64,000 nt of DNA from assembly GCA_024278935.1 (NCBI GenBank), contig JAJRSF010000048.1, positions 1 through 64,000 of the forward strand. The letters are read 5' to 3'. The position numbers were made by a program, and so were the translations under genes. Source of the DNA: Candidatus Zixiibacteriota bacterium. Its GTDB lineage: Bacteria > Zixibacteria > MSB-5A5 > GN15 > FEB-12. This document shows, in pieces, positions 23,941 through 28,780 of the stretch. Position 1 is the stretch's first letter; each line of letters begins with the position of its first letter. The notes under the pieces were generated by a model. That model saw only the letters and a program-made list of their open reading frames with translations. It did not search any database and was not told where the DNA came from.

Positions 23941-24318
23941 ATGAATATACCATCAGAATTAAAATACACCAAAGAACATGAATGGGTTCGTGTCGAAGGT
24001 AAGGTCGCAACTATTGGTGTTACTGATTATGCACAGGCAGAACTTACAGACATTACATTTTTTGAACTTCCGGAAATTGGTCGTAATGTGAAACAAATGG
24101 AAGAAATTGGCGTTATAGAAACATCAAAGGCAGTTTCTGAAATCTACTCACCTTTGAGCGGAAAAATTGTTGAAATAAATTCAGCACTTGATGACACGCC
24201 CGATACGTTGAACTCTGATCCGTATGGTGGCGGATGGTTAGTGAAAATTGAAATTTCTGATGACGCCGAAGTGGGCCAATTGTTGTCTGCCGATGCGTAC
24301 AAAGAACTGACAGAATAA
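23941..24318 (+). CDS. gcvH: Glycine cleavage system H protein
   Basis: A 125-aa lipoyl carrier that shuttles the aminomethyl group between P and T proteins. It starts MNIPSELKYTKEHEWVRVEG, and the lipoylated Lys is in IGVIETSKAVSEIYSP near residue 63. It ends with the usual GGWLVKIEIS and LLSADAYKEL. ATG follows TTGAGGAATAT. gcvPA begins 22 bp later. gcvT and a dihydrolipoamide dehydrogenase are not in the window. Confidence 0.96.
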   Translation: MNIPSELKYTKEHEWVRVEGKVATIGVTDYAQAELTDITFFELPEIGRNVKQMEEIGVIETSKAVSEIYSPLSGKIVEINSALDDTPDTLNSDPYGGGWLVKIEISDDAEVGQLLSADAYKELTE

Positions 24319-24340: not shown

Positions 24341-25696
24341 ATGTCTTATATCTCACATACCGGTGATGACCGGAAAAAAATGCTCGATAAAATCGGCATG
24401 AAATCAATGGAAGAACTTTTTGATCCTATTCCAAAAGAACTCAGGTTGCAAAACCGTTTAAATATTCCGGTTCTTTCTGAAATGGAACTCTTAAACGAAC
24501 TAGAACAAATTTCAAATCTAAATGCAACCGAACTTGCCTGTTTTGCGGGTGGTGGAGTATACGATCATTTTATTCCGGCAGCTTGAGAATCTGTCTTAAG
24601 CCGTCCAGAATTTATGACCGCATATACGCCATATCAGGCTGAAGTTGCTCAAGGAACTTTACAAGTTATTTACGAATTCCAATCGCACATCTGTCGCATA
24701 ACAGGGTTAGAAGCTGCCAATGCATCGATGTACGACGGTGCCTCTGCCGCTGCGGAAGCATTGATACTTTCGATCTCTGTGACCAAGCGAAAAAAAGTGG
24801 TTGTCTCTGAAACAGTCTCGCCGATGTGGCGTGAAGTTATCAGTACCTACCTTTCCGGTAGGGATGTTGAGTTGGTTTTTGTTCCATTAAAAGATGGTAA
24901 CAGCGACTTTGAAAAAATTGCAGATGTTGTTGATGAAAATACTGCAGCACTTTTGATTTCTCAACCGAACTTTTTTGGGTTCTTAGAAGATGTCGATCAA
25001 GCTGTAGAACTAATTCATAAAGTTGGCGGGAAATTAGTAGTCGGTGTTGATCCGGTTGCTCAAGCTCTGTTGAAAACTCCTGCTGAATTTGGTGCCGACA
25101 TTGTTGTTGGCGAAGGGCAACCTTTTGGAGTTCCAATTTCGTTTGGTGGTCCTTTGGTTGGATTCTTTGCTGTTAAAAAAGAACTTATCCGTTTTATGCC
25201 GGGTAGAATTGTCAGTCGCACAAAAGACGTTGATGACAAAGAAGGTTTTGTACTAACACTGCAAACTCGCGAACAACATATCAGAAGAGAAAAAGCAACA
25301 TCGAATATTTGTACCAACCAAGCACTCTGTGCAACGGCTGTGACAATCTATCTTTCATTGCTTGGCAAAGAAGGATTCAAACAAGTTGCATTGTTGTCTG
25401 CTGAAAAAGCGCAGGAAGCATATAAAAAAATTATCGCACTTGATGGTTTTGATGCGTATTTTGATAAACCGTTTGTGCGGGAGTTTGCAATCAAAACTCC
25501 GATTCCTGCCAAACAAGTTATTACAGAACTTGCCAAAAATAATCTCCTAGCCGGTATTGATGCCGGGAGATGGTTTGTCGGCTTTGATAATTGCCTGATT
25601 ATTGCCTGCACCGAAAAAAGAACTTCAAAGGAAATTGATCGGTTAACTGAAAGTTTAAAGGAACTGTCCAAAAGTGGAATACTGTCCAGCCTGTAA
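24341..25696 (+). CDS. gcvPA: Glycine decarboxylase subunit 1, read through an in-frame UGA
   Basis: The full frame is 451 codons if the TGA at 24584-24586 (codon 82) is read, a normal length for GcvPA. Before it stands FAGGGVYDHFIPAA, and after it ESVLSRPEF then TAYTPYQAE, exactly the GcvPA order. In Thermus GcvPA, as I remember it, the UGA position is a small hydrophobic residue (Val), between IPxx and the RxEF block. If UGA ended translation, the enzyme would be split, and the next Met (24614) has no ribosome site. Downstream, NASMYDGASAAAEA and VVGEGQPFGVPISFGGP are intact. It overlaps the next gene by 23 bp. Selenocysteine, another suppression, or a true lesion remain possible. Confidence 0.8.
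24600..24621 (+). promoter_or_regulatory. Weak SECIS-like hairpin downstream of the gcvPA UGA
   Basis: GC and GTC at 24600-24605 pair with GAC and GC at 24616-24621 around one C/C mismatch. The 10-nt loop begins 19 bases after the UGA, the right distance for a bacterial SECIS. The first loop bases are CA, not G, unless A24607 pairs with T24615. I consider it only suggestive. Confidence 0.3.
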
Positions 25697-26018
25697 ATCT
25701 GAGATTCAACCGAATACCGATAGTTGTGCTATTTGCAACCATGCCTTTGACACCAATATCAAAAGCGAATGGATAAAAATAGGTTCTATCCAAGATAATA
25801 TTTCCGCAGGCTATGCCAAGGAAACTTTGGAATCATCAAAAATTCCTGTTGTGATAATTTCTAACTCCGGCATGTTCGGAGCGGCAGGTTTGTCGCTTAA
25901 TCCATTTCATGGTGAAGCACAAGGATTGTTTGATGTTTCCGTCCCCGAAGAATACGCTAAAGAAGCGACCGAGGTTCTCAATATGATTCTAGGCGATAGC
26001 TGGACAAAGAAGGATTAA
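25674..26018 (+). CDS. Zinc-ribbon protein with DUF2007-like domain (copy 1)
   Basis: A 114-aa protein. An N-terminal zinc ribbon (YCPACKSEI then DSCAICNHAF; four Cys) is followed by a domain with WIKIGSIQDNISAGYAKETLESSKIPVVI and a C-terminal VPEEYAKEATEVL, the pattern of DUF2007 (a small putative signal-transducing domain). It starts inside the 3' end of gcvPA (23-bp overlap) and precedes a paralogue by 6 bp. Placement inside the gcv operon suggests co-expression with glycine cleavage. The role is unknown. Confidence 0.75.
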   Translation: MEYCPACKSEIQPNTDSCAICNHAFDTNIKSEWIKIGSIQDNISAGYAKETLESSKIPVVIISNSGMFGAAGLSLNPFHGEAQGLFDVSVPEEYAKEATEVLNMILGDSWTKKD

Positions 26019-26024
26019 AAATAT

Positions 26025-26405
26025 ATGTACTGCCCACAATGTAAAATACGATTTGAAACCAAAGACTTTAACTGCCCGGATTGTCGCACGTTACTCGTAC
26101 TGAACTTAAACGGTCATTCATCGGCGGTAGAGCCAGACAATAGTTGGGTTGTTATCGCAGGTGTTGATGATGACTTAAATAAAGAACTTGCCAAAGGTGC
26201 GATTGACTCCGGCAATATTCCATCTTTGGTTATAAATACTGAGAATGAAAAAGATAAAGAGCTATTGGCTACTTTGATTAATAATAATTCTGATTTTGAA
26301 CTTGAAAGAAATATTATCATGGTTCCCAATGAATATAGAGTAGAAGCTTTGCATCTTCTCAAAGGTCTCTTTGGTGTAGAAATCGAAATTGAAATAAAAA
26401 GTTAA
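26025..26405 (+). CDS. Zinc-ribbon protein with DUF2007-like domain (copy 2)
   Basis: A 126-aa paralogue of the preceding gene: MYCPQCKIRF and NCPDCRTLL form the zinc ribbon, then WVVIAGVDDDLNKELAKGAIDSGNIPSLVI and VPNEYRVEALHLLKGL. The two differ enough to be an old tandem duplication. Start ATG is 6 bp after the upstream stop. Function is unknown. It may sense or bind a small ligand or metal in connection with the neighbouring thioredoxin-like gene. Confidence 0.75.
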   Translation: MYCPQCKIRFETKDFNCPDCRTLLVLNLNGHSSAVEPDNSWVVIAGVDDDLNKELAKGAIDSGNIPSLVINTENEKDKELLATLINNNSDFELERNIIMVPNEYRVEALHLLKGLFGVEIEIEIKS

Positions 26406-26438
26406 AGTTCGTTCATAAAATAATGAAAAGGAGCAACG

Positions 26439-27311
26439 ATGAAGAAAAAGATTCTCATGTTCATGATAGCAATAATTGCTGTCATAGCTGTCTCTTGTGA
26501 CAAACAAGCTGAAAAAGTTGTCGCAGAAAATGGAGATTATTATTTTGCAACATTTGCTGACGCCAAATTAAAAGCAGATGAATATGACAGAGGTATGGTA
26601 CTTGATTTTTACACCGATTGGTGATCATGGTGTAAAAAATTCGACACGGTCGTGTTGATTGACTCAAGTATGGAAAACTATTTCTCCTATGAAATGATTT
26701 TTGTGAAAGCACATGCAGAAGCTGCTGATTCTCTCACTGCTAAAAAATATAAAGTAAGTGGATTCCCGACTTTTGTTGTGACTGACAGCAAAGGAAATGA
26801 AATTGATAGAATCGTCGGTTATTTACCTGCGGAAGAATTTATTCAAACTGTTAAAGATTATAAAAATGGTATCGGTACCTTAGATGATCTACTCTCAAAA
26901 GTAGAAGCATCACCTGATAGAGAAATGTATTTTGATATTGCCGATAAATATAAATATCGTGGCGCTCCTGAAGATGCTACCAAGTGGTTTGAAAAAGTTA
27001 TCGCCGATGGTGAACCTACTGATTCACTTTCCGGTGAAGCAAGTTTCTCCCTAGCCGATATGATTTTACGTAAAAAAGAATATGACGCAGCAATTGAAGC
27101 CTTTACGGCAATCAAAAATAATTTTAAAGGGACTCAATTTGATGAAACAGCATCGATTTATATCCCTTATACCATAATGAAAAAAGGTGATACTACAAAC
27201 GCTATTGCAGGATTTGAACTATTTATTAAAGAGTTTCCTAAATCTGAAGATGTAGAGTATGCTACCAAAAAAATCAGCGAACTGAAAGGTGAAACTGTAG
27301 AAGGTAAGTAG
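26439..27311 (+). CDS. Thioredoxin-fold lipoprotein with a probable selenocysteine (UxxC), TPR-like C-terminus
   Basis: The frame is 290 codons if the TGA at 26622-26624 (codon 62) is read. It has a lipobox AVSC with Cys20, so it is likely anchored on the periplasmic side. MVLDFYTDW then UGA then SWCKKFD is a thioredoxin active site in which UGA replaces the first Cys of CxxC. The resolving Cys is residue 65. The cis-Pro region VSGFPTFVVTD and IDRIVGYLPAEEF complete the fold. Residues about 160-285 look like TPR helices (AIEAFTAIKNNF, AIAGFELFIKEFP). ATG follows AAAAGGAGCAACG. A hairpin with the SECIS shape follows the UGA. A stop here would leave a useless 61-aa stub. Confidence 0.85.
26641..26658 (+). 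promoter_or_regulatory. Candidate bacterial SECIS element
   Basis: TCGACAC at 26641-26647 pairs with GTGTTGA at 26652-26658 (7 bp, one G-U), closing a GGTC tetraloop at 26648-26651. The loop starts 23 bases after the UGA. Bacterial SECIS elements have a short stem, a loop with G (often GU) at its start and a loop distance of roughly 16-37 bases. The GGUC loop resembles the known fdhF loop of E. coli. Confidence 0.7.
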
Positions 27312-27322
27312 TAAATTAGAAA

Positions 27323-28780
27323 ATGAATAAACCAAATTTAATTTATCAAAAATCTGTTTCGGGAAGAAAAGGATTCACTCTTCCTGAAACAAAAAAATCG
27401 TCATCAGAAATTCTTTCAAACATACCTGAAAAATTTCGACGTTCATCCGATGCTCCACTTCCTGAAATTTCAGAGAGTGAAGTGATGCGTCATTTTGTTG
27501 GCTTGTCGGTGAAGAACCATCATATTGATAAAGGTTTTTATCCGCTAGGTTCCTGCACTATGAAATACAATCCAAAGCTCAATGACAAAGCAGCCGGACT
27601 CAAAGGTTTTAGCTTGCATCATCCGCTGACACCAAATGAACTTTCTGCCGGTTGTCTGAGGTTGCTCTATGATCTTTCAAAAGATTTATCTGAAGTCGCA
27701 GGTCTCGATGCGGTAACGCTTCAACCTGCCGCAGGTGCCCATGGCGAGTTTACCGGTCTGCATATTATGCGTGCCTTTCATTTGAAAAATGGCGATACAA
27801 AACGTAATAAAATAATTATCCCGGATTCTGCCCACGGTACCAACCCAGCCACGGTTACATCGGTTGGATTTAAAACGGTACAGGTAAAATCAAATGAGTT
27901 TGGCGTGATTCCTCCTGAAGCAGTTGCTGAAGTGATGGATGATGAAGTTGTTGGTATGATGATGACCAATCCAAACACACTTGGGATTTTTGAAACACAT
28001 ATTAAAGAGATCGCAAAAATTGTACATGATGGTGGCGGTCTGATGTATATGGATGGTGCCAATCTCAATGCTAATATGGGGATTTTCAGACCCGGCGATG
28101 TTGGCTTTGATGTCATGCATTTTAATCTGCATAAAACTTTCTCAACTCCACATGGCGGTGGCGGACCTGGTTCGGGTGCTGTTGGTGTGACAAAAGAACT
28201 TGAAAAGTTTTTACCATTTCCGGTACTTGAAAAAAATGATGATGGTACTTTGTTCTTTAACTATGACAGACCTGATTCAATCGGAAGAGTGCATTCATAC
28301 AATGGTAACTTTGGCGTCTTAGTTCGTGCCTATGCTTATATCAGATCTTTAGGTGGTGATGGGCTAAGAGAAGTTTCTGAAAATGCGGTTTTAAATGCCA
28401 ACTATCTCAAAGAGATCGTGCGGGAATATTATGATTTACCTTACGATGTAACCTGTATGCATGAGTTTGTGCTATCAGGGAACCGTCAGAAAAAAATCGG
28501 TGTCAAGACACTCGATATTTCAAAACGTCTTTTAGATTTTGGGGTGCATTCACCTACGAATTATTTTCCGTTGATAGTTCCTGAAGCTATGATGATTGAG
28601 CCGACAGAAACAGAAACAAGGGAGACCCTCGATGAATTTGCTGCAATTATGAAACAGATAGCAAAAGAAGCCGTGGAAAATAAAGAACTGGTCACATCTG
28701 CTCCGCATACAACTATTGTTCGTCGTTTAGACGAAGTTGGTGCAGCTCGTAAAGGTGATGTTGCCTTTTTAGAAGAATAG
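27323..28780 (+). CDS. gcvPB: Glycine decarboxylase subunit 2
   Basis: A 485-aa PLP-binding half of the P protein. It has [14 protein letters not shown] (about 72-85), [25 protein letters not shown], and [20 protein letters not shown] with the PLP Lys near residue 271. It decarboxylates glycine together with GcvPA and loads the aminomethyl group on GcvH. It starts 11 bp after the thioredoxin-like gene, so all genes from accC to here may form one unit. A terminator follows. No internal stop is present in this half. Confidence 0.96.

Follow-up and report, generated by a model that had tools for sequence, protein, structure and literature searches.

A probable exported selenocysteine-containing thioredoxin–TPR protein encoded in the glycine cleavage gene cluster of Zixiibacteriota

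Introduction

Thioredoxin-like selenoproteins with selenocysteine (Sec) at the first position of the CxxC motif (UxxC) have already been catalogued. They include a family of thiol:disulfide interchange proteins with the PF13098 domain, represented by WP_011366075.1 (Table 1 of PMC13188914). TPR tails, lipoproteins and Zixibacteria do not appear in the catalogue's description of this family, on which our comparison is based. E. coli CnoX (YbbN; PDB 3QOU), which carries no Sec, has a TPR domain C-terminal to its thioredoxin domain. The TPR domain serves as a holdase, and the protein works alongside GroEL/ES and DnaK in the cytoplasm; its motif is SxxC, and it does not reduce insulin (PMC8129009). 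The C-terminal thioredoxin domain of DsbD and the selenoprotein TsoB are of the periplasmic reductant type. BamD/YfiO and CpoB-type proteins have TPRs but no thioredoxin domain.

Here, we analyse a gene of a Candidatus Zixiibacteriota bacterium that standard gene calling stops at an in-frame UGA. It lies in a stretch of 64,000 nucleotides that we call the window (GCA_024278935.1, contig JAJRSF010000048.1, positions 1 to 64,000, forward strand), which belongs to a metagenome-assembled genome (MAG) of 3.4 Mb, 95% complete. A first-pass annotation, made from the window alone, had proposed that the UGA encodes Sec in a membrane-anchored extracytoplasmic protein whose arrangement it did not know as a described family.

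Results

An interrupted thioredoxin gene within the glycine cleavage cluster

The gene is flanked by genes of the glycine cleavage system and by two small zinc-ribbon genes:

23941-24318, forward strand: gcvH, same gene cluster (Pfam PF01597)
24341-25696, forward strand: gcvPA, same gene cluster; in this MAG a TGA at 24584, not taken as Sec, breaks the frame (Pfam, relatives)
25674-26018, forward strand: DUF2007-like zinc-ribbon protein, a conserved neighbour (Pfam, 24.8 bits, slightly below the cut-off; synteny)
26025-26405, forward strand: second zinc-ribbon protein (CxxC..CxxC; no Pfam match; synteny)
26429-26433, forward strand: AGGAG ribosome-binding site, 5 nt upstream of the ATG (read from the sequence)
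26439-27311, forward strand: putative selenoprotein gene, exported thioredoxin–TPR protein (290 aa, Sec as residue 62), ending at TAG
27323-28780, forward strand: gcvPB, beginning 11 nt downstream of the selenoprotein gene (Pfam GcvP2_C; synteny)

Matches at E ≤ 1e-20 were found in 120 of 132 genomes of the phylum, and we retrieved and aligned the loci of 107 copies from Zixiibacteriota (most of those with names being Candidatus Zixiibacteriota MAGs). In 91 of these copies the gene follows gcvPA and precedes gcvPB, the exceptions being mostly cut contigs or a paralogous group. The tie with glycine cleavage may be one of co-transcription only.

The first-pass annotation described a frame that stays intact past the UGA, and this is what we find: a single in-frame TGA at codon 62 (...VLDFYTDW-TGA-SWCKKFDTVV...), then the TAG. 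With Sec at this codon, the translation runs MKKKILMFMIAIIAVIAVSC..VLDFYTDW-U-SWCKKFDTVVLIDSS.., with the following features:

26439-26498, forward strand: signal peptide with lipobox (..IAVSC; Cys20), read from the sequence
26586-26855, forward strand: thioredoxin domain (PF13098 / PF00085) with the UxxC active site and the invariant cis-Pro110 (Pfam, alignment, AlphaFold, PDB match)
26622-26624, forward strand: TGA read as Sec, residue 62, first residue of UxxC (codons of the phylum copies)
26631-26633, forward strand: resolving Cys65 of UxxC
26934-27263, forward strand: TPR / YfiO(BamD)-like helical region (Pfam; AlphaFold helices 148-282; PDB profile search)

Domain architecture and comparison with known families

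The best Pfam match is Thioredoxin_2 (PF13098; 53.7 bits for a cut-off of 27), accompanied by Thioredoxin, both over residues 50-139. With its UxxC motif, the protein shares the domain and the Sec position that characterise the catalogued PF13098 family. The cis-proline is kept in all 107 copies and Cys65 is Cys in 102. Matches to YfiO/TPR begin beyond residue 166. The AlphaFold model, built with 29 aligned sequences (pLDDT 90.1, pTM 0.82), consists of a thioredoxin fold followed by helices up to residue 282.

The nearest NCBIfam profiles, DsbD and TsoB, reach 54 and 53 bits, far short of their curated cut-offs of 330 and 805 bits. The DsbD match (54.1 bits) covers the C-terminal domain only, and the window protein differs from these reductants in lacking a transmembrane domain and in having a TPR tail. 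BamD/YfiO and CpoB-type proteins match only the TPR part, in the C-terminal half. In a full-length PDB search, E. coli YbbN/CnoX came first (E 2.4e-9), above DsbD-gamma, thioredoxins and BamD. Because the superposition is poor (TM 0.30) and identity is 13%, the two proteins agree in domain order rather than in arrangement. There is also no YbbN profile among the Pfam matches, and the window protein has a signal peptide or hydrophobic N-terminus where CnoX is cytoplasmic.

These comparisons bear on the main rival to a role in disulfide exchange, namely that the Sec-containing product acts as an exported CnoX-like chaperedoxin, combining holdase activity with redox protection. It would fit the best full-length structural match and the precedent of a thioredoxin domain joined to a TPR holdase (PMC8129009). 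Yet the described CnoX works in the cytoplasm with GroEL/ES and DnaK, through an SxxC site that leaves insulin unreduced, whereas the present family retains UxxC and the cis-proline, which argues for catalysis. Together with the poor superposition and low identity, this leads us to regard the chaperedoxin as possible but unlikely, and we favour a catalytic thioredoxin.

The lipobox and the TPR-like tail noted initially are both present in the window protein; the membrane anchor does not extend to the family as a whole. A hydrophobic N-terminal segment occurs in 106 of the 107 copies and a lipoprotein pattern in only 41, so that export, and not lipid anchoring, is the conserved trait.

Three copies have Ser at the Sec position (genomes G070, G114, G117; loci L163, L161, L166), and in two of them the motif is SxxS. 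Redox function was apparently lost in these copies, yet the gene kept its place in the gcv cluster, a hint that the TPR part is of value by itself.

The hairpin of the window and the spurious stops of its genome

The 7-bp stem with a GGUC loop that had been reported 16 bases after the UGA is there:

26641-26658, forward strand: SECIS hairpin, stem 26641-26647 / 26652-26658, loop GGUC 26648-26651 (folding, shuffles, covariation)

This hairpin (UCGACAC-GGUC-GUGUUGA, −7.8 kcal/mol) starts 16 nt past the TGA, with 23 nt between TGA and loop, and satisfies the published limits of bacterial SECIS elements (PMC13188914). An Rfam search with it returned no matching family. The hairpin's folding energy, taken alone, is unremarkable: its z-score is 0.47, and 135 of 200 shuffled sequences fold equally well. 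Scored as a SECIS-type hairpin at the proper distance, however, it outdoes almost every codon shuffle encoding the same protein (p 0.003). By itself, the hairpin in the window sequence would not convince.

The genome also calls for caution, as several of its conserved genes are interrupted. In gcvPA, an in-frame TGA (24584-24586, forward strand; DHFIPAA-TGA-ESVLSRPEF) replaces a TTA Leu codon of same-genus relatives; we take it as a consensus error or a private mutation, not as Sec. The only selA of the genome (L046, G000:C64:9741-11075) has a TGA at C64:10710, also at a Leu position (TTA in the nearest relative, G003); this TGA is not present in any relative searched. Further interruptions in a 464-kb sample of the genome (G000) are a TAG in valyl-tRNA synthetase (L242:1735), a TAA in a Band-7 gene (L249:16415) and a TAA in a carboxyl-transferase gene (L250:7091). 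The simplest reading is that consensus errors, or scattered real mutations, explain these stops, and not a changed code. The MAG consensus thus appears to hold spurious stops, gene calls in it need care, and a selenoprotein finding would not be trustworthy from this genome alone. With shuffles folding as well as the lone hairpin, and with spurious stops elsewhere in the MAG, the case depends on the relatives.

A reassignment of UGA in the lineage, for example to Trp, Gly or Leu, would account for the single in-frame UGAs at Leu positions of gcvPA and selA. We rejected UGA-for-Leu, as other genes are interrupted by TAA and TAG, and relatives have TTA at these positions. Moreover, 25 of 232 long frames in the 464 kb terminate at TGA, the UCA anticodon occurs only on tRNA-Sec in the scanned loci (the two tRNA-Leu seen have UAA and CAA), and homologues carry Cys, not Trp, Gly or Leu, at codon 62. 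We consider a reassigned code extremely improbable, and read the UGA of codon 62 as Sec.

Sec and Cys at codon 62 across the phylum

In homologues, the codon matching the UGA is Cys or TGA and the frame is conserved on both sides, which places the UGA exactly at the first Cys of the CxxC motif, as the first-pass annotation had it. Codon 62 is TGA in 69 of the 107 copies, Cys in 35 (24 TGC, 11 TGT) and Ser in 3. This bears directly on the rival view that the gene encodes a plain CxxC thioredoxin and that its TGA arose by nonsense mutation or through faulty sequencing or assembly. The MAG lends it some credence, with its stops in gcvPA, selA and the valyl-tRNA synthetase, Band-7 and carboxyl-transferase genes. 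But the stops of gcvPA and selA, when compared with relatives, are private to this MAG and fall at Leu positions, whereas the TGA of codon 62 is always at the catalytic Cys position and is followed by a SECIS under selection. A sequencing error at this codon is excluded because the TGA is shared by 69 copies from independent assemblies, and an error or nonsense mutation is, overall, a very improbable account of the gene.

On a tree built by a quick method without the active-site columns, Sec and non-Sec must have switched 19 times, with no fewer than 10 of the switches on strong branches. Sec thus seems to have been swapped with Cys many times across the phylum, often leaving a decaying RNA signal.

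Other observations concern related genes. Three distant copies contain TAG or TAA, which we rejected as Sec recoded to other stops: they lie at the C-terminal end, and the active-site codon is Cys or Ser. One family, f19 (L205-L210, G125-G130), is a paralogous UxxC thioredoxin–TPR selenoprotein outside the gcv cluster, with a strong hairpin (GGACUCU-GGC-AGAGUCC); some of its genomes additionally carry a Cys copy within the cluster. A further selenoprotein family may exist in the phylum, since some longer frames (about 390-446 aa) match thioredoxin weakly and contain a single TGA (G019:C7:5068-5526, G024:C255:11121-11567, G053:C235:10421-10810, G043:C25:32272-32679).

The hairpin is selected and covaries

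In the window's family, the 32 TGA copies use nearly invariant codons along the hairpin: Thr70 is ACG and Val71 GTC in all 32, Val72 is GTG in 31 (97%), and residue 73, wherever it is Phe, is always TTC. Codon identity is 97-100% at the hairpin codons vs a mean of 56% over 125 codon columns of the gene. The 31 distinct TGA sequences all preserve the loop and the 7 pairs (217 of 217 cells paired). Two pairs show two-sided compensating changes: the second pair is G-C in 22 sequences and C-G in 9, and another changes from C-G to U-A. The reversal of the second pair tracks residue 73, with Leu (TTG) accompanying a 5'-side C and Phe (TTC) a 5'-side G. None of 500 shuffles reaches the observed covariation, which is lost when the partner is moved by 1-3 columns. 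On these alignments, the hairpin is under strong selection and covaries.

Tests of individual sequences give a similar contrast between codon types. The best SECIS-type hairpin compared with codon shuffles has a median p of 0.033 in TGA genes (41 of 69 at p ≤ 0.05) vs 0.449 in Cys genes (5 of 35). Folding compared with dinucleotide or codon shuffles is weak per sequence, and only the difference between groups is clear (Mann-Whitney p 0.003). Among the Cys copies of the window's family, the hairpin is intact in G005 and G017 and retains 3 of 7 pairs in G014 and G036. We read these intact-to-decayed hairpins as probable relics, the intact ones marking recent replacement of Sec, since graded decay is expected if Sec was replaced.

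Different hairpins are similarly placed in other families of the phylum, including UCGAUAC-CGUGAC-GUAUCGA (f2), a 10-bp form with a GGA loop (f13) and that of f19. In about ten TGA copies of distant families, no hairpin fits the simple SECIS model.

Selenocysteine machinery and other selenoproteins

The first-pass annotation suggested looking for selA, selB, selC (tRNA-Sec) and selD, and all four are in the genome. A single tRNA-Sec scores above the gathering score (64.5 bits, anticodon UCA), and selB (314 bits), selA (505 bits, with the TGA described above) and selD (372 bits) exceed the curated cut-offs. The selA TGA, if real, would mean that selenoprotein synthesis is off in this strain. 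The selD gene carries an in-frame TGA of its own (KLTAEVSCAG-TGA-ASKL). So does a DUF3179 gene (L243:2260-3189, G000:C33:42260-43189; TVTW-TGA-PLCYTG; 193 bits when read through), a family catalogued as selenoproteins (PMC13188914). For formate dehydrogenase, no match in the genome reaches the cut-off, and the matches lack TGA. A covariance model of the SECIS scanned across the genome finds this gene alone convincingly (57.6 bits; next 18.6), so its other selenoprotein genes must use other hairpins.

In the window's family, tRNA-Sec passes the cut-off in 21 of 23 genomes with TGA vs 7 of 12 with Cys (Fisher p 0.033). No such difference is seen when all 57 scored genomes are taken together (p 0.75), because many Cys genomes keep the Sec machinery; MAG incompleteness blurs both comparisons.

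Discussion

The homologous Cys and TGA codons, the tRNA-Sec with selA, selB and selD, and the selected, covarying hairpin support the Sec reading proposed initially, and the gene very likely encodes an exported Sec-containing thioredoxin. SelB with Sec-tRNA(Sec) would bind the hairpin just past UGA 62 and allow Sec to be inserted. Sec62 would be the nucleophile of the UxxC site, with Cys65 resolving. The signal peptide, of lipoprotein type here, would export the protein, and the selenolthiol pair would act outside the cytoplasm. There, it may reduce or isomerise substrate disulfides, the direction of the reaction being our supposition; we put such a role somewhat above even. Re-reduction could come from a DsbD-type membrane protein, one of which is encoded elsewhere in the genome, and the TPR domain may hold a protein substrate or partner. 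The UGA at a Cys position, the selected SECIS, the Sec machinery, the domain order and the gene cluster can be read from the sequences; what we infer from them is the likeliest function, that of an enzyme which reduces or isomerises disulfides, draws its electrons from DsbD and holds its substrate with the TPR.

As to novelty, the initial claim of an arrangement outside described families stands in part: the UxxC thioredoxin-like kind is known, and the architecture and operon are undescribed in PMC13188914. The exported thioredoxin–TPR form in a gcv operon is absent from that 2026 catalogue. The terms "lipoprotein" and "Zixi-" are absent from the selenoprotein catalogues of 2026 and 2022, as are TPR from the former and tetratricopeptide from the latter. 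A literature search, with most subscription papers outside its reach, found no such selenoprotein arrangement in a gcv operon and no link between selenoproteins and Zixibacteria.

These results point to selenium use through an extracytoplasmic thiol-redox protein whose gene belongs to a cluster conserved across an entire uncultured phylum. The occurrence in close relatives of TGA, TGC/TGT and Ser forms with intact-to-decayed SECIS, at one nearly fixed position, makes the exchange of Sec and Cys testable by enzymology on natural pairs. More speculatively, and with considerable doubt, the family could be a phylum-wide exported seleno-chaperedoxin, with a catalytic UxxC thioredoxin and a substrate-holding TPR. 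Its synthesis would be built into the glycine-cleavage operon and couple extracytoplasmic redox repair to one-carbon metabolism. If so, the 19 inferred switches and the graded SECIS relics would be a natural record of the loss, and perhaps regain, of Sec.
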